Source of the DNA: Calditrichia bacterium | GTDB taxonomy: Bacteria; Calditrichota; Calditrichia; RBG-13-44-9; J075 | Direction of reading: 5' to 3' | Length of the DNA: 64,000 nucleotides | Assembly: GCA_028284905.1 (NCBI GenBank) | Contig: JANQQU010000093.1 | Location: forward strand, 310,001-374,000 | Part shown: in pieces, positions 10,506 to 45,544 of the stretch | Layout of the letters: each line of letters starts with the position of its first letter | Numbering within the stretch: position 1 is the first letter of the stretch | Position numbers and translations under genes: made by a program | The notes under the pieces: generated by a model | Databases searched by the model: none | Told to the model about the DNA's origin: nothing | Seen by the model: the letters and a program-made list of their open reading frames with translations, nothing else

Positions 10506-13500
10506 TTAATCTTTTTCTACAGCATCCCGATGCGCACGACGATATTCTGTGGGCGAGCATTGAAAGGCATCTTGGAAACAGCGGGTAAAGTAGGCCTGGC
10601 TGTTAAAACCGACCATATAGGTAATTTCTGCCATGTTACCGGCATTCTGGCGAATTAACGATGCTGCCCGCTCCAGGCGGAAACGTCGAATAAAATCCCG
10701 CGGCGATTGATCGCTGATTGCCTGCAATTTGCGGTAGAGCTGAGAGCGACTTAACCCGACGGCTGCTCCCAACTCCTCGACGCCAAAATTTTCATTGTCA
10801 ATATTCGTTTCGATGGCGGAGGTAAGTTGCTCGATAAACTGCTGTTCCATTGATGGCATCGCTATTTCCGAAGGCTTTAAAAGCATTTCGGTGCTGAATT
10901 TCTCGCGCATCTGGCGGCGCTGGTTTACCAGATTTGTCACCCGAATTTTCAATTCCTCGGCGTCGAAGGGTTTTACGAGATAATCATCTGCACCGGTCTC
11001 CAGCCCGGTCATTTTGTCCTGGCGGGAGGCACGGGCCGTTAAGAGAATAACCGGAATATGACTGGTTTTTCGATCATTTTTTACCTTGTTGCAAAGTTCA
11101 TAACCATCCATTTCCGGCATCATTACATCACTGATGATAACATCCGGCAATACTTCCGTGGCTTTCTCCCAGCCCAGTTTCCCATTTTCCGCTTCAATTA
11201 CAGTATATTTGCCCGCTAGTTGATCCCGGATAAACGTCCGTAAATCTTGATGGTCTTCCACTACTAATAAGAGTGGTTTCTCCATATTATTACTATTCGT
11301 AGCTGCAGAATCTCCATGAGAAGCAGCGGTGGTGGACTGTGTTTCATCATCGTCAATAATTGCTGTAGTTTGCTCTGCGAGAGACTTTTCATCACTCTCT
11401 TTAGTTTTTTCCTCAACAATATCTTTTGCACTTAAGTGACTGCGTCCCATGGGAAGGCAAACTGTAAAGGTGGTTAGTTCATGCTCACTGCTTTCAACAG
11501 AGATGTCGCCATGGTGCATTTCCACTAATTCTTTTGCTAACGCCAGTCCAATCCCGGTACCTTCGTAATTGCGCGTCTCGCTTTCGTCCGCCTGAAAAAA
11601 ACGGTCAAATACATGGGGAAGTGCCGCTGCCGGAATGCCCGGCCCGGTATTCGCAAAAATAATTTCCACAAACCCGGCGGAGATGTTGGGTAATTTCTTC
11701 TCATCGCCATCATGAACTGAGACCGCCACAGAAATTTCGCCACTGGCAGGGGTAAATTTGAAAGCATTGGAAAGAATATTAACGAACACTTTTTCCAGCT
11801 TATCCGCATCATGGTAAATGTGAATGGCAGTGTGACCGGCTTCCGAGATCAACGGGGCATCATTGAACATCATGCGGATATTCTTCTGATCGCCCGCTGT
11901 GGCAAAAGAGGTAAATATTCGCCGCAGTAAACCGATGACATCCGCGCGGCTTGTCTGTAGTCTTTCCCCACCGGCCTCCAGTTTGGCGAGATCGAGGAGC
12001 TGGTTAATTAGTTGCAGTAAACGCGCACCATTGCGATGCATCATCTGAAACTGTTTGCGCTGCCCGCCTTCCAACTGACGGTCCTTTAGCCAGCTCTCAA
12101 GTGGGGCCAATATCAACGTTAACGGGGTGCGGAATTCGTGGGAGATGTTGGCAAAGAATCGGGAGCGCATTTGGTCGATTTCCTTCAACTTGCGAGTCTC
12201 TACTTTTTCAATCTCTACCTGATGCCGCAGTTGCTGTCGATTCAGTTCGTAGCGTCGCAATCCAAAAAGCAGTGCAGCAAAAGCAAAGGCATATAGCAAA
12301 TAGGCCCAAATCGTCCGCCACCAGGGGGGAGAGATGGTGATTCGTACCGAAGCTTCCGCCGCTTTAGCAATGCCGTTATTGAAGCAGGCGCGTGCGCGAA
12401 AAACATACTCGCCAGGATCAAGATTGGTGTAATACGCAGTTCTCTCCTTACTGACTGTGCGCCATTCCGTTTCGTAATTCTCCAGCATGAAAGTATAAAG
12501 ATTACTGCCGGTCGACTGGTAATCCAATTCTGCAAAAGTCAGGGTAATATCGTTCTGGTTATAGGCGAGGGAAATTTCACTGGCGACAGATATATGTTGC
12601 TGCAGCGTCTCGTTTTTTCCAACAGCAGCAGCACGATTGTTAATTTTAATGTCCGTCAGAACAATGGGGGCGTCATAACTTTGTTCTTTCAGACTATCCG
12701 GAAAAAAGGCGTTAAACCCGTACGCCCCGCCGAAAAACAGCTCCCCGTTTCGACTTTTAAAATGCGCCCCGAATCCAAATACATTGTCCTGCAGCCCATC
12801 GTTCTTCGAATAGTGCCGAAAGGTATTTTCTTCTGGATTATAGCAAGTCAGGCCTCGTAAAGAACTGATCCAAAGATTGCCATTATTATCTTCTTCCAGC
12901 CCCATCACCGAATTGTGCAGCAGTCCTTTGGCTTCGGAAATTTGCACTTCGCTGTGATTTTCCCGGTCAAACCTGATTAACCCATCTTCAAGCGTACCAT
13001 ACCATAATACGCCATTTCGGTCGATTAACAATGATGATACCGTACGATGATCGCCAGGGCTTTTTTTGAAACCTTTTAACAGGCCACTGGCACGATCGAA
13101 ACGCAGCAGCCCTGCTTGACTGGCTCCCAGCCACAAATAGCCTTTTTCATCTTCAATGATATCGTTAATTTCGCCTTCGCGATACCAATCTGCATTTTCT
13201 TCGAATTTGGAATAAACTTCCCAGTGATCTGAAGAAGACGGATCCATTACATTGGGCTTCGGGCTAATTAGAGGTGGATCGAGGCGTAGTAATGTCAAAG
13301 CATTCGCCCCAATCCAAAAATAACCCTGGCGATCCTCATAGATTCCACCCATATCAATGTTGGATATCTTATTGTTCGCATTGTAGAAATAATAGCTAAA
13401 CTGTTTCCGTTCAGGGTCGAGGCAGTTGAGACCGCTTTCCGTAGAAATCCAGATAGAACCATTTCGAGCTTCATAAATGCTGTAGATGGTTGCATCATTT

Positions 13501-39425: not shown

Positions 39426-40364
39426 TTAATTTTTTGAGAACTTTTTCAATAATGCCTGACGACGTTCTTCACTGGATTGACGGTTTTCATCAGATTGTAA
39501 GGATATGATTCGTCGGGTACGGGATGCTGCTTTATTACCAAGACCATTTGCCCATGCTGTTTGACGCAATATCTCTACACCAAGACCTTTTTTCGTTTCA
39601 ATCTCCGCTTTCCTTAGCACCTTTTCGACCATCCGTTCTGCTGCTGCTTCCGATAGCCGAACCGGCGAATGTTTTTTTGCACTGTTCAGAAACATAATCG
39701 AATTGCGATGAACCCGGTTTTCCAGATAAAAATTGATTAATACTGCGGTTCCATAGGGGATTTCTGTTTGCCACTCAGGATTATCAATACCACCAAAATA
39801 AACATTGATTTTTTCATCCTCCACTTTGAAATCGCCGGAAACGATATCTTCCGTTTCCAGGTCAATCACGCCGCTTGGGTGTACCATTAAAGAAAGTGCT
39901 TCCGTTATACTGCAGCCGGTCGATAATATTAATGAGACCAGGGCCGTTTCTTTCCGTTGCGTATCGTTGCCGACATGATAGGGGAGAAAGGTATTTAACC
40001 TTTGATACTCCGCCTTGTTTAATCCCCGCAATTTTTCCGGCGTTTTTTCCGGAATGCGAATGATTTCCGAGATGACTTCATTACCGAGATAGCCGCGGTC
40101 TTCGATATATCGGAGAAATTCCTTAAAAGCGGTCAGATACCCATTTTCTGCATTTTCAGAGACTTCGATACCCTGGTCGATGTTCTGCCAGCGTGTCGTT
40201 CGCCATGCTGTTGAGACTTTATAAGAATCGATATCGCCCAGGGACTGAATCTGTAAATTATCAAACATCACTGTCAGATTCCCAAGATAATTGACGACTG
40301 TATCCTGCGTATAACGGCAATTCTTTTCCAGATATGATTTATATTCTCTCATCAGATTAAACAT
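39426..40364 (-). CDS. Tyrosine-recombinase-fold protein lacking catalytic residues
   Basis: 312 residues resembling a XerC/D or phage integrase. It has an N-terminal SAM-like core-binding domain (YKSYLEKNCRYTQDTVVNYL... AFKEFLRYIEDRGY) and a C-terminal catalytic-fold domain with the usual order: LILSTGCSITEALSL where integrases have TGLRISE, a beta hairpin with a basic loop, YLENRVHR-SIMFLN, and GVEILRQTAWANGLG where integrases have H-x-L-R-H-T. The box I Arg is Ser, the box II His is Glu and the following His is Gln (one Arg is kept). No Tyr exists in the last 85 residues, so the nucleophile is absent. It should bind DNA but not cleave it. Last gene of a three-gene operon; RBS AAAGGAGAA; 11 bases after the preceding gene. 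Confidence 0.75.
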   Translation of the reverse strand: MFNLMREYKSYLEKNCRYTQDTVVNYLGNLTVMFDNLQIQSLGDIDSYKVSTAWRTTRWQNIDQGIEVSENAENGYLTAFKEFLRYIEDRGYLGNEVISEIIRIPEKTPEKLRGLNKAEYQRLNTFLPYHVGNDTQRKETALVSLILSTGCSITEALSLMVHPSGVIDLETEDIVSGDFKVEDEKINVYFGGIDNPEWQTEIPYGTAVLINFYLENRVHRNSIMFLNSAKKHSPVRLSEAAAERMVEKVLRKAEIETKKGLGVEILRQTAWANGLGNKAASRTRRIISLQSDENRQSSEERRQALLKKFSKN

Positions 40365-40375
40365 GGCTTTCTCCT

Positions 40376-41107
40376 TTAGTTTGCGCTGAAGTTTCGGCCC
40401 TGACGACCCATTTCCTGCAAATACTTACGAACGGTTTCCCGGGAGGATACCCCAACTGCTGTTGCCATTTCCGTAAGGGAAGCATCCGGATATTCATCCA
40501 GGAAATCTTCCAGCATTTGCATTCTTTCCTGCTTGTTTCGGCGGATCTGCGCATTGGCTGCACTGAGATCCCCGGAAGCCGGTTTACTGCGCGGCGCTTT
40601 CAGCTCCGGACGCGGCGAGGTAACACTGCGCGGATTCGCGCGCTGGGAACGACCCTGTGTCTTTTTATATTCCACCAGGTTGCGGGTGCCGATCGTATCG
40701 CACATGACATAAGCAAGGATCGGAAAGACAATGGTGCCGGCCAGCCACTGCGTCCAGGTTAAAGGATCAAGATTGACTAAATTGGCATAGGTAAGTTCGA
40801 TACCGTAGGCAGAGCTAAAACCTTCCGCCATGTTAGCGATACCGGAAGCGAATAAGACCAGTGTGGTAACTACTCGGACCATCCAGGCCAATTCACCATC
40901 CTTGATGAGTTCATCCTTGAAAATCGACATTGCCACAACCCCAGCGTCAATCGCGAAGGCGGCAACGGCTCCAAGAAGGAGACTATCATAAAAAAACTGG
41001 CTCATGAACGTTGTGGTGTGCATGAAGGTCGCAGTGAGAATACCGACCAGACACAACGCCCCGGCGCGATACTTGACAAGCTCTCTAAATTTTGACCTCA
41101 TTTCCAT
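40376..41107 (-). CDS. Four-TM membrane protein with C-terminal HTH domain
   Basis: 243 residues. N-terminal half: four predicted membrane helices (ALCLVGILTATFMHTTTF; LLLGAVAAFAIDAGVVAMSI; VRVVTTLVLFASGIANMA; WLAGTIVFPILAYVMCDTI). Then a basic, Ser/Pro-rich linker (about 160-195) and a C-terminal helix-turn-helix (DASLTEMATAVGVSSRETVRKYLQEMG). A membrane-tethered DNA-binding protein is the simplest reading. The topology recalls DUF2637/SpdB-type proteins of actinobacterial plasmids, but I cannot confirm homology. The start overlaps the end of the upstream gene by 23 bases (translational coupling), with AGGAGA 9 bases before the ATG. Downstream is the recombinase-like gene. Confidence 0.72.
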   Translation of the reverse strand: MEMRSKFRELVKYRAGALCLVGILTATFMHTTTFMSQFFYDSLLLGAVAAFAIDAGVVAMSIFKDELIKDGELAWMVRVVTTLVLFASGIANMAEGFSSAYGIELTYANLVNLDPLTWTQWLAGTIVFPILAYVMCDTIGTRNLVEYKKTQGRSQRANPRSVTSPRPELKAPRSKPASGDLSAANAQIRRNKQERMQMLEDFLDEYPDASLTEMATAVGVSSRETVRKYLQEMGRQGRNFSAN

Positions 41108-41477
41108 TGTTCTGGTCTCCTTTCTTTTTGTTGTTTAACAGTCTGCGTTGAATTGTCTGATCTTCATCGGTGCGGTTTTCCCGTTGCGCCGTCGGCAGGC
41201 GATTATTGCCGTCGGCATGCTGCTCGCCGAAAGCACCCGGAAAAAATCCGTACTTGCGCCCACTCTGATATTGAAGAAATTGTCCGGCATTAAACATCAA
41301 TACCGTTTCGCTGTTTGCTGTTACTGCCTGATCGGTCGCTGCGGTTTGCTCCAGAAAAGCACGAGCCATGCTCGCAGTGTCCTGCATAATAATTCCGTCC
41401 ATAGAAGTACTCCTTGCGTTTTGGGTAGGGGTTTTGTTAATTGATACACTTTCAGATTTGTCCGAAAATCGGCTCAT
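41085..41477 (-). CDS. Small hydrophilic protein of unknown function, first gene of operon
   Basis: 130 residues from ATG 41477; GGAAGGA lies 8 bases upstream. The longer frame to 41567 would start inside the promoter. No membrane segment, and rich in Ser, Asn, Gln and Thr. It has a short motif-like centre (SETVLMFNAGQFLQYQSGRKYGFF spans about residues 56-79) and a charged, probably disordered C-terminus. I do not recognise a family. It is the first gene of an operon with a membrane-HTH protein and a catalytically dead recombinase, so a DNA-associated or regulatory role is possible, but this is context only. Confidence 0.65.
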   Translation of the reverse strand: MSRFSDKSESVSINKTPTQNARSTSMDGIIMQDTASMARAFLEQTAATDQAVTANSETVLMFNAGQFLQYQSGRKYGFFPGAFGEQHADGNNRLPTAQRENRTDEDQTIQRRLLNNKKKGDQNNGNEVKI

Positions 41478-41495
41478 TTTTTTCCTTCCGGATAT

Positions 41496-41616
41496 AGTGA
41501 ACAGAGAAATTAAAAGTAGTGAACAAACATTCACTTGTATGATACGGCGAGATTTCCGCTTTGTCAAGTTATTTTCTCATTAAAATATACTTTTGTTCAC
41601 TAGTGATTTTTGTCAA
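41496..41616 (-). promoter_or_regulatory. Near-consensus promoter overlapped by AGTGAAC/GTTCACT operators
   Basis: On the minus strand TTGACA (41567-41562) and TATCAT (41544-41539) are 17 bases apart, an almost ideal sigma70 promoter 62 bases before the first gene. Over the expected start site lies the inverted repeat AGTGAACAAACATTCACT (41518-41535). A further AGTGAACA is at 41496-41503 and the perfect palindrome TCACTAGTGA at 41597-41606, next to a second TTGACA (41616-41611). Repeated half-sites placed on a strong promoter indicate tight repression. The half-site recalls GAAC/GTTC LexA boxes, but with other spacing or mismatch, so the repressor is unknown. Confidence 0.7.
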
Positions 41617-41809: not shown

Positions 41810-44800
41810 TCATTTTAGTGAACGATAGTGGTCCATGAAAGTCTTACGGTCATTGAGTATACGGGTCAATTCAACGTCCCGCAGAATGACATTAATCTTG
41901 ATCGCCTCGTTTAGATAGCGTTTCGCTACTAGGGGTTCGTGGACACGCGTATCGAGATAAAAGTTGGCAAGGTCGATATACTTCAGCGCTTCCAGGCGAC
42001 GCTCATGGAGATCATGGCTGATCTGAATACTTTCATTGAGATAATGTGCTGCCCGTTCGAGATCGCCAATTGAATAAACTGTTAAGGCGAGCAGATGGAG
42101 CGTTCTGGCAATGCCAGGGCGGTAATTGGTTTCCCGACTGAGGCGCAAACTTTCATTCAGATAACGAATGGCACTATTACGATCCTTCCGCTCCCGCATG
42201 ATGACGCCAAAATGATAAAGAACGACGGACTTGATAATATCGAAGCGCAGCTCTGTGCAAATGCGAAACGCTTCTTGTAAATAGCGCTGGGCATCATCAA
42301 GCCGTTTACGGGCAATTTCCTGTTCGGCGATTTTAGTAAGGGCGTTACTTTCAATCTGTCGATCGCCGATTTCCCGGCTGATCTGCAAGTTATCGTGCAG
42401 CAATGGCAGGGCCTGATCCTGGGGGAGATGATTGCCCATTATCTCCACGATGTTCTTCAAGATGTCGTTTTCGATGTATTTGTCACCAATTTGCCGGGAT
42501 ACTTTCAGGCTGGCCAACAGGTAACGCAAAGCAGTGTGGTTCTCATGCTTATCGCGATAAATGTCCGCAATAGCGTTAAGATTGGTGCATTCCCCACGCT
42601 TATCATCCTGCTGGCGACAGATTTTAACACAGTCGGCAAGTAGGCGAGCCGCTTCATCCGGCTCTTCCCGCATCAGCATAATCGTACTCATTTGCATCAG
42701 CAGTTCCCGACGGGCAGGCAGATCTCCAAGCGCTTCCTGAAGCGACAAGGCTTCCTGCACTAATGGTAAAGCGGTGGGGTGATCGCCCCGGCCATAATAT
42801 AGCTGACTCATTGTGCTGAGAATATCCGCCTCGATATGCCGATGCCCTAGTTGACGGGAAATATCCAGGCTTTGCTCAAGGTAGAGCAGGGCGGTATCGT
42901 GAACGCCCATTACCCGGTAAATATCTCCCAGATAGCCAAGGGTTTTACAGAGTTTGATGTAATCCTTGCCGGACTGAAAATTGGTGAGCATATTTTTGTA
43001 GATGGTAATTGCATCATCATATTTGCCGAAGATACCGAGAATTTCCGCGATACGATACCAGATGGATATCGGCGTTTTTTGATTCAGGGATTTGTGGATC
43101 TGCCAGGCAAAATAAAAGGAGACATTCATCATGGACAGCGCATAGTAGAAATCGGAAAGGATCTCTCCGGTTTTTAATACGGACTTTGCATCATCGGTTA
43201 AAGTGTAATGGAAGAAGGCTTCTTTTAGCTCGGTTAAAGAACCACCCAGTTTGTTATAGCAATCATGATGATAACGGCCGGCAGCGAGGTGATTGAAGCT
43301 GTCGGTTGCACGCTCCCGGTCGATTTTTTCCAGGGAGGTGCGAATCGGCGGCGTTACGTAATAATAAGCATCATGGGTTTTCTGATCGATGTTGATTTCA
43401 ATCAGGTTTAATTCAAAAAGGCGATCAAGCATTTCCGCGGTAACTGTTTCCAGCGCGTCGGCATCCTCCGTGCCGGGAATTTGGGCCAGCACTGCGCCGA
43501 TTTGTACTGGAATGCGAAAGCGGGAAAGGATGCGTAGAATTAGCTGCTGGCGGGTGTCCAGTAAATTGATCATATGGGGCAGAATGAAGCCGATGCCGGC
43601 GCGGGCGGGAATTCGTCCATTCTCCAGTTCGCTCGCTTCGTACACCTTCTCCAGCCAGATCAATACTTTCGCGGCCAGGTCGATGTTTTCTTCTACCAGC
43701 ACGGCAAAGAGCGCCAGTGCCTGATAATTGCCACCGATATTTTTGTAAATCATTTTAACCAGATCGCCAAATGCAATCGGCTGATGGTGAAAAAGGCGGT
43801 GGCAAATTGCCGATTGCTCCGGCTGGCAGAGATATATCGCCAGATCGGTAATGTTCAGGTAATAGCAGCGTTTCCAGAAATCGGCCAGTCCCGGGGCGTC
43901 GATCTCAAAAACTGCTACTTCCGGAAAATCCGGCATGACGTGGCGATTGGTAAGGATGACGTGGAAACGCTGGATGTGGCAAAGAAAGTGAATGATTTCC
44001 GCCAGTCCCTGGTAGCGATCGTCAAAATTCTCTCCCGGGGCAGACTGAAATTCTTCCAGGTTATCGAAGACAAAAATCGGTTGCCAGTGTTTGGCAATTT
44101 CATAGAGAAGATAGGTGAAAATCTCCTTGGCCGTCTCAAAGCTTTTGATTTTGACAATTACTTCCATGTCGCCATTGGCGAGAAGGAAATTTTGCATGGT
44201 ATCGAGCAATTCGTGTACGGCGCGAATTTTTTCTCCGAACACGAAGGGAATGATATTTTCTTCATCTTCAATCACCCGCGATACCAATTGCTGCGCCAGG
44301 GCGGTTTTACCAATGCCGGAAGGTCCTTTCAGGAGCACTGGCGCTTTTTTCGCAAAATGAGGACGAACGGCAACAAGATCTTCCCGCCGGCCAATAAAAA
44401 GGTGATCCGAGGAACGCTGTTTAATCGCCCGGCTGAGTTCCGCCGGAAAACGAAAAGAGTGGTAAGCCAGACGAGAAGGGGGGATGGACCAATCACCCAG
44501 CGTGCCGATTTTTCCACTGGAATAAAGGTTAGGTAAAATCCATTGCAAGGGATTGGGGTTTTCCCGGCCGGCTTGTTCCAGGTCAGCTTGTTCCAGCTGG
44601 TAAATATGTTTTGTTGAGGCATTGAAGGCGATAAAAAAGGGCCATTTCTGCGCGGAACGCATAATGAAATGGCGGGCGAATGCCACTGCATAGCGCAACT
44701 TAACCGCGCCACCCAATGCAACCACCGCGGAAGTGCCGCCTTTGATCAGCTCCCGGGAAATATCCCGCAGGGCAGTCTCGGTGCCTTTGTCGGTCATTTG

Positions 44801-45544
44801 GCAGAGAGAGAGGAATATCGCGGGTATTTGATAATCAGGGTTACTCCGCAGGGCATCGGCAAGGGCGCTGCCGTGAACAAGCTCGGTATCCCGCGTCTCA
44901 GCATCTTCGAGGATAATATGGCCTTCGCCACCCTGCAAAATGCCCTGTCCGGCAAAATAGAGGAGATGAAACTGATGCTGTTTGATTGCTTCCCGAATTG
45001 CCTTTAATGAACTGCCCGGGGCAAAATAAACTTCCACTTCCTTGCTTTGCACCAAAGAATGAAAGGCTTCCAGGAGTAAAAACTCCTGCTGCTGAAAAAT
45101 ACGCTGAATATCGGATTTGGTGTCCAGGGGGCAGGAAATAACCACCAGAACCTTTAGAGGCGCAGGTGCCTTTAAAGCCGGGGGCTCGTGCCGTTCAGTG
45201 GAATGCACCGGCAGCAATTTGTTGATGAAAAGATTGGGAATATCCCCGAGCTTTTTGCCGCTCCGCTGATCGATTGCCGCGGACCAGGGCAGGCTAAGAA
45301 TCTCACTGTCGGGGTGAATCAGGATGATAGAATGGTTTTCCTCGGAATCCAGCACGGTATCAATTTCCCGGCGGAGATCAGGGATGTTGTTGACCAGATA
45401 AGTTAACATTCCTATTAACGAATCCAGGATTTCCGATTGCAGCGGGAAGTTCGCTTCCAGATGTTGCTGCAATCTGGCATTGTCCGTTTTCAGTCGTTCG
45501 ATTTCTTCATCGCTCAGGACAAGCCGAACCGGTTTCCAGATCAC
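41810..45544 (-). CDS. CHAT-like domain / STAND NTPase / TPR protein
   Basis: 1244 residues from GTG 45544, supported by CGGAG 8 bases upstream. N-terminal CHAT (caspase-like) domain about 65-320: ILIHPDSEILSLPW, HLLYFAGQG and FLSLCQ. The Cys is kept (C248) but the catalytic His of the usual HFxGHG motif is Gln200, and the first His is Tyr. Middle STAND/NB-ARC-like ATPase with P-loop GPSGIGKT (407-414) and Walker B-like FVFDNLEEF. C-terminal half: at least ten TPRs (LGYLGDIYRVMGVHDTALLY and so on). No signal peptide. Proteins of this plan are signalling NTPases that oligomerise on a trigger sensed by the repeats, and many act in anti-phage or cell-death systems; that role is inference. Neighbours are the operator-controlled recombinase-like operon. 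Confidence 0.85.
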   Translation of the reverse strand: MIWKPVRLVLSDEEIERLKTDNARLQQHLEANFPLQSEILDSLIGMLTYLVNNIPDLRREIDTVLDSEENHSIILIHPDSEILSLPWSAAIDQRSGKKLGDIPNLFINKLLPVHSTERHEPPALKAPAPLKVLVVISCPLDTKSDIQRIFQQQEFLLLEAFHSLVQSKEVEVYFAPGSSLKAIREAIKQHQFHLLYFAGQGILQGGEGHIILEDAETRDTELVHGSALADALRSNPDYQIPAIFLSLCQMTDKGTETALRDISRELIKGGTSAVVALGGAVKLRYAVAFARHFIMRSAQKWPFFIAFNASTKHIYQLEQADLEQAGRENPNPLQWILPNLYSSGKIGTLGDWSIPPSRLAYHSFRFPAELSRAIKQRSSDHLFIGRREDLVAVRPHFAKKAPVLLKGPSGIGKTALAQQLVSRVIEDEENIIPFVFGEKIRAVHELLDTMQNFLLANGDMEVIVKIKSFETAKEIFTYLLYEIAKHWQPIFVFDNLEEFQSAPGENFDDRYQGLAEIIHFLCHIQRFHVILTNRHVMPDFPEVAVFEIDAPGLADFWKRCYYLNITDLAIYLCQPEQSAICHRLFHHQPIAFGDLVKMIYKNIGGNYQALALFAVLVEENIDLAAKVLIWLEKVYEASELENGRIPARAGIGFILPHMINLLDTRQQLILRILSRFRIPVQIGAVLAQIPGTEDADALETVTAEMLDRLFELNLIEINIDQKTHDAYYYVTPPIRTSLEKIDRERATDSFNHLAAGRYHHDCYNKLGGSLTELKEAFFHYTLTDDAKSVLKTGEILSDFYYALSMMNVSFYFAWQIHKSLNQKTPISIWYRIAEILGIFGKYDDAITIYKNMLTNFQSGKDYIKLCKTLGYLGDIYRVMGVHDTALLYLEQSLDISRQLGHRHIEADILSTMSQLYYGRGDHPTALPLVQEALSLQEALGDLPARRELLMQMSTIMLMREEPDEAARLLADCVKICRQQDDKRGECTNLNAIADIYRDKHENHTALRYLLASLKVSRQIGDKYIENDILKNIVEIMGNHLPQDQALPLLHDNLQISREIGDRQIESNALTKIAEQEIARKRLDDAQRYLQEAFRICTELRFDIIKSVVLYHFGVIMRERKDRNSAIRYLNESLRLSRETNYRPGIARTLHLLALTVYSIGDLERAAHYLNESIQISHDLHERRLEALKYIDLANFYLDTRVHEPLVAKRYLNEAIKINVILRDVELTRILNDRKTFMDHYRSLK

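Follow-up and report, generated by a model that had tools for sequence, protein, structure and literature searches.

The window analysed here is a 64-kb stretch of DNA from a bacterium of the phylum Calditrichota. On its minus strand, within 39426-41616, lie three co-directional genes in the order S, TM-HTH, REC, and the features of the locus, from the upstream end of the promoter to the last gene, are as follows.

41583-41603, minus strand: predicted LexA (SOS) box upstream of the -35 hexamer, AGTGAACAAAAGTATAT, 23.3 bits
41562-41567, minus strand: -35 hexamer TTGACA, 17 bp from the -10 hexamer
41539-41544, minus strand: -10 hexamer TATCAT, from the promoter reading
41516-41536, plus strand: predicted LexA (SOS) box at the predicted transcription start, core AGTGAACAAACATTCACT at 41518-41535, 18.6 bits
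41496-41502, plus strand: single AGTGAAC word in the leader, not a full box (less than 7 bits), which may be chance
41085-41402, minus strand: S, small protein of 105 aa (open reading frame; N-terminal motif in relatives)
40376-41107, minus strand: TM-HTH, predicted four-helix membrane protein with a cytoplasmic C-terminal helix-turn-helix (HTH), 243 aa (open reading frame, alignment, model, hydrophobicity)
39426-40364, minus strand: REC, predicted Xer-fold tyrosine recombinase without catalytic residues, 312 aa (open reading frame, profiles, alignment, structure model, dN/dS)

S and TM-HTH overlap by 23 nt and a gap of 11 nt separates TM-HTH from REC; these distances, the reading frames and the TTGACA-17-TATCAT spacing agree with the original prediction of a tight three-gene set behind a near-consensus promoter carrying AGTGAAC/GTTCACT repeats. 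The start of S was placed at the ATG at 41402 by its fit to relatives. An alternative ATG lies at 41477, and a TTG at 41567 was rejected as a start because it falls inside the promoter. The downstream neighbour encodes a DUF5916 protein. Upstream, 41810-45544 encodes a 1244-aa protein with CHAT protease-like, NACHT/STAND and TPR domains, possibly a defence or signalling protein. Scans of the 64-kb window for tRNA and Rfam RNA genes were empty.

Two predicted LexA boxes, 67 bp apart, bracket the operon promoter. The matrix used to score them drew solely on lexA and recA promoters from the Calditrichota family to which the window belongs (13 lexA and 3 recA sites in 6 genomes, lexA having been located in six genomes and recA in five). 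These promoters carry AGTGAAC-N4-GTATAC or close forms, and the recA promoter of one genome (G002) showed no box in the stretch read. Across the 64 kb, only 41516-41536 and 41583-41603 exceed 10.2 bits, and in 217 kb of relatives' loci every site of at least 15 bits belongs to the promoter of an orthologous operon or of a solo TM-HTH copy; random sequence of the same dinucleotide make-up yields 2 sites of at least 18 bits per 4 Mb. The orthologous operons are preceded by the same arrangement, TTGACA/TAxxxT hexamers accompanied by two boxes, one of them upstream and the other, AGTGAA-N6-TTCACT-like, at the start site (G002, G003, G004, G005 and G006, the upstream box of G004 being weak at 10.9 bits), and the distance between boxes is 60-67 bp in the operon relatives against 63-68 bp in lexA promoters. 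Because both sites match the LexA boxes of the family's own lexA and recA promoters, we place the operon in the SOS regulon and regard its control by LexA as very probable. What had seemed an odd operator becomes a clear prediction, namely that the operon should respond to DNA damage, and the Calditrichota gain a defined, if predicted, SOS box; a search of open-licence papers returned no description of a LexA box from this phylum. The GAAC-N4-GTTC-like core resembles the SOS box of Staphylococcus, CGAAC-N4-GTTCG (PMC9578287).

On the scale of the genome, good boxes also stand before a few small genes, lexA, recA and the gene for a radical-SAM protein with a weak match to spore-photoproduct lyase (L110). 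Elsewhere in the same genome, a two-box SOS promoter (L108:1432-1886 on contig C40; 23.7 and 19.5 bits, 67 bp apart) stands before a 104-aa open reading frame with no Pfam match. A second LexA/UmuD-like S24 peptidase gene follows lexA at five loci (L061, L062, L063, L064 and L065); the copy in the window's genome encodes 146 aa and matches PF00717.

The product of the second gene, TM-HTH, has four hydrophobic regions (residues about 10-35, 44-62, 73-91 and 122-140), which agree with four long helices in its structure model, and a C-terminal HTH at residues 180-232 modelled with a pLDDT of about 80. The membrane part of the model is of low confidence, and both structure predictions in this analysis were made from shallow alignments of 5 and 9 sequences. 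These segments bear out the earlier pairing of a recombinase-like gene with a protein of four transmembrane helices and a C-terminal HTH. Basic residues that precede helix 1 and follow helix 4 suggest that both ends are cytoplasmic. Eight copies agree at about two thirds of positions 1-144, an unusual constraint, and for this membrane domain no Pfam or PDB relative was found. Foldseek returned nothing significant for the protein, its weak matches for the HTH being to FapR-, Lrp- and MarR-type winged helices, and the 243 residues contain no ATPase domain. Membrane proteins of the DUF2637/SpdB type, from actinobacterial mobile elements, have several transmembrane helices as TM-HTH does. Assignment of TM-HTH to DUF2637 was set aside, as it gave no match to PF10935 at E ≤1; SpdB of pIJ101 likewise has no Pfam match. 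In S, an N-terminal motif (M-x2-F-x-M-L-D-S-x2-V-A) is common to five relatives, with a sum-of-pairs score reached in 0 of 2000 shuffles, and the remainder of the protein is poorly conserved. A 488-aa protein with several hydrophobic segments, encoded near a phage-tail-like stretch in another genome of the family (L037:7975-9441, contig C79 of G003), has a C-terminal HTH very like that of TM-HTH (51% over 47 aa).

For REC, three lines of analysis agree in predicting a two-domain Xer-type recombinase fold: profile matches to XerA and XerC, a structure model (pLDDT 76, pTM 0.65) that is Xer-like with good confidence to about residue 275, and Foldseek, which ranked XerH and XerA best (E about 1e-5 for these and XerD) and also retrieved lambda Int and Cre. 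Whole-chain TM-scores fell between 0.3 and 0.44, low values that a different arrangement of the domains would account for. Only one of six catalytic positions is kept in the window's copy, the box II Arg (ILRQT). Ser stands in place of the box I Arg (TGCSITEAL) and Glu in place of the box II His, the catalytic Lys is gone, and beyond about residue 275 the chain runs into a low-confidence tail, so that the box III His and the Tyr have no counterpart. Alignment of eight REC members from six genomes revealed the same pattern, with the box I Arg kept only in G005 and G006, an acidic residue at the box II His position in seven members, and the box III His and Tyr absent from all eight. The active site, judged from these residues, is almost certainly dead. 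The original prediction had described an integrase layout without the box I Arg, the box II His or a Tyr nucleophile, and the alignment confirms each of these losses. Both grounds on which that prediction was to be refuted fall away: an intact active site occurs nowhere among the family's members, and the predicted fold is that of Xer. In a distant homologue from another family of the class (L035 in G033; 28% identity) the site is intact (HILRH, GH, Tyr), and the ancestor of REC was therefore probably active. A search with a canonical Xer protein found two other Xer-type genes in every genome of the family, and their persistence speaks against REC as a housekeeping Xer gone bad.

By its distribution, the operon appears specific to one family of Calditrichota. 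TM-HTH and REC are each found in six of the family's seven genomes and together account for all seven; in the two genomes that lack one of them (G001 and G002) the contig ends at the site, and in all five whose contig spans it (G000, G003, G004, G005 and G006) the two genes are adjacent. The family is represented by few genomes, most of them metagenome assemblies in fragments. Neither gene occurs in the remaining 33 genomes of the phylum, except for the distant intact homologue of REC in G033, and a scan of 84,980 species found TM-HTH in this family only, a record named Deltaproteobacteria being a contig of G006. The gene lon lies upstream of the operon and divergent from it in three of the seven genomes (G002, G003 and G005) and is not adjacent to it in the window. 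Maintenance of a plasmid or ICE, one of the roles first envisaged, was discarded: plasmid and INPHARED phage records gave no matches, and the copies with a dead REC sit among chromosomal genes, beside lon in those three genomes. A second TM-HTH copy in the same genome (L029:9116-9745, contig C52) has its own SOS box and promoter, a truncated C-terminus without the HTH, and no REC beside it.

The best mechanistic reading remains that of a membrane-tethered DNA-binding system. We propose that LexA would occupy the two boxes bracketing the promoter and that, upon DNA damage, RecA would trigger LexA cleavage, allowing S, TM-HTH and REC to be made. TM-HTH would be anchored in the inner membrane with its HTH facing the cytoplasm, and REC, unable to cut DNA, would serve, probably alongside TM-HTH, as a DNA-binding subunit for structure or recognition. 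Gene order and co-conservation point to this partnership, and we consider a joint membrane-plus-DNA complex reasonably likely. The two proteins may, however, not always act together: the L029 copy lacks both the HTH and a REC partner, and two REC paralogues (L030 and L031) stand at contig ends with no TM-HTH visible. Such a complex might tether a damaged or unsegregated chromosome to the membrane, holding back division or segregation until repair is finished, and this checkpoint role is put forward tentatively. The proteins of the complex may later be cleared through proteolysis by Lon, whose gene is a neighbour in several relatives: the upstream, divergent lon in three of seven genomes recalls SulA and Lon, the precedent in E. 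coli. The chain as a whole, an SOS-induced, membrane-anchored DNA-binding complex that would most likely serve as a damage checkpoint on division or segregation, is offered with similar reserve. That it amounts to a new class of SOS checkpoint, in which a phage-derived pseudo-recombinase would be the DNA-recognition subunit of a membrane complex delaying division or segregation, we hold to be somewhat less likely still. A recombinase fold kept without its chemistry, apparently under damage control and beside a membrane anchor, nevertheless offers a testable case of reuse as a DNA-binding part.

To our knowledge, the operon has no counterpart among members of the SOS regulon, and we know of no SOS operon that unites a dead recombinase with a membrane-HTH protein; our search of open-licence papers likewise found no comparable trio. 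Each part has relatives in known systems. Streptococci possess conserved XerD-like relatives of Xer that, as REC, have no active site, and we know of no membrane-HTH partner or SOS control for these proteins. YneA, SidA and SosA are small inner-membrane proteins without a DNA-binding domain. They are the SOS-induced membrane division inhibitors of Bacillus, Caulobacter and Staphylococcus, respectively (PMC9578287), and TM-HTH resembles them as a membrane protein predicted to come under LexA control after DNA damage. Unlike these inhibitors, the operon described here provides four helices, an HTH and a Xer-fold partner, and for it we infer the effect on division. LexA-controlled integrases include the integron integrases and a XerD-type phage integrase (PMC3998124), with which REC has in common a tyrosine recombinase fold under a LexA box; those enzymes are presumed active, whereas REC is devoid of a nucleophile and is encoded beside a membrane-HTH protein. 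With XerH and XerA (PDB 5jk0 and 5hxy) REC shares its fold, domain order and sequence profile, but not the catalytic Arg I, Lys, His II, His III and Tyr.

A different role, one of the two main alternatives beside a phage-facing one, is suggested by FtsK and its partners XerC/XerD, which TM-HTH recalls in its four-helix membrane domain, its DNA-binding winged helix and its link to a Xer-type protein. TM-HTH could then be an FtsK without a motor, and REC, as a Xer partner without catalysis, could modulate the action of the other Xer recombinases on dif once chromosome dimers have arisen through recombinational repair. The nearness of the REC fold to XerH/XerA, the two further Xer-type genes in every family genome and the phage versions that join TM-HTH to an active-site-intact recombinase are consistent with such a helper, and ftsK of E. 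coli is itself transcribed from an SOS promoter, dinH (PMC4080785). However, TM-HTH lacks the ATPase motor of FtsK and its Xer-like partner is inactive. The HTH weakly matches winged helices of the Lrp/FapR/MarR type, FtsK-gamma not being among its Foldseek matches; no dif-like site was identified, and a distribution confined to one family sits poorly with dimer resolution, which is universal. We therefore judge a helper role in dimer resolution improbable.

The origin of the pair bears on another reading. TM-HTH, at 63-76% identity to the window's copy, occurs in two IMG/VR contigs (L044 and L045) and, as two copies, in an element of G003 (L028); L045 encodes a tape-measure protein, and L044 and L028 encode an integrase and a phage-type primase. 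In L044 (10001-11502) and with one of the L028 copies (11044-12446), TM-HTH is followed directly by an intact tyrosine recombinase of 232-245 aa, distinct from the element's own integrase. Neither REC nor its distant homologue with an intact site gave a match in viral scans. As prophages of the clade carry TM-HTH, twice with an intact mini-recombinase, the TM-HTH/recombinase pair was probably taken over from prophages; these prophage versions, together with SOS control, are what the present analysis adds to the original prediction. The captured pair might still act on phages, binding att or control sites of SOS-induced prophages and blocking excision or superinfection. SOS is the usual inducer of prophages, and the phage contigs and the integrase/primase element, two of them with the recombinase behind TM-HTH, would fit such a tamed module. 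The phage copies, however, lack the SOS promoter, their active-site-intact recombinase is of another subtype than the inactive chromosomal one, and the operon in the chromosome, with no phage genes around it, is stably kept across the family. A role directed at phages is accordingly unlikely in our estimation, and the SOS-induced membrane complex is preferred.

The operator had originally been read as private to the HTH or REC protein. Indeed, AGTGAA-N6-TTCACT at 41518-41535 is the sole such palindrome in the 64 kb (0 in 100 shuffles), although lone AGTGAAC words are not rare there (6 against 4 expected). Its 6-bp centre, as in recombinase core sites, and a palindrome more perfect here than in lexA or recA promoters would suit an autoregulated operon bound by the HTH domain or REC instead of LexA. 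Against this, the same boxes and spacing occur at lexA and recA in relatives, the site also precedes the L029 copy that has neither HTH nor REC, and the site is missing from phage copies in which the HTH is retained. A private operator is thus very improbable, and the earlier reading gives way to one based on the LexA box of lexA and recA in the host, which both sites match. It is possible that the LexA box is also bound by the HTH or REC, in dual use.

From the substitution ratios, the dead REC is under purifying selection: between G005 and G006, dN/dS is 0.11 for REC, 0.08 for TM-HTH and 0.22 for S (0.08 and 0.18 for two neighbouring genes), and it is 0.12 between REC paralogues, figures that derive from one species pair and one paralogue pair. 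That REC is on its way out and its conservation incidental, as the lost active site and its greater divergence between genera (29-44% identity to the window, against 67-73% for TM-HTH) might suggest, is scarcely credible beside these ratios, a frame open in all six genomes carrying REC, a conserved gene order and promoter and a fold predicted with good confidence over most of its length; isolated decay is rejected because of this family-wide conservation and the low dN/dS. The REC paralogues in the same genome (L030:10893-11768 on contig C73 and L031:10669-11541 on contig C2) are 93% identical and each reach to within about 30 bases of a contig end, the gene upstream of them being probably a repeat lost in assembly. 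The window's REC ends in -KN; the last residues of the other seven members (L024, L025, L026, L027, L030, L031 and L034) are -VA, -IA or -AA, a possible protease degron.
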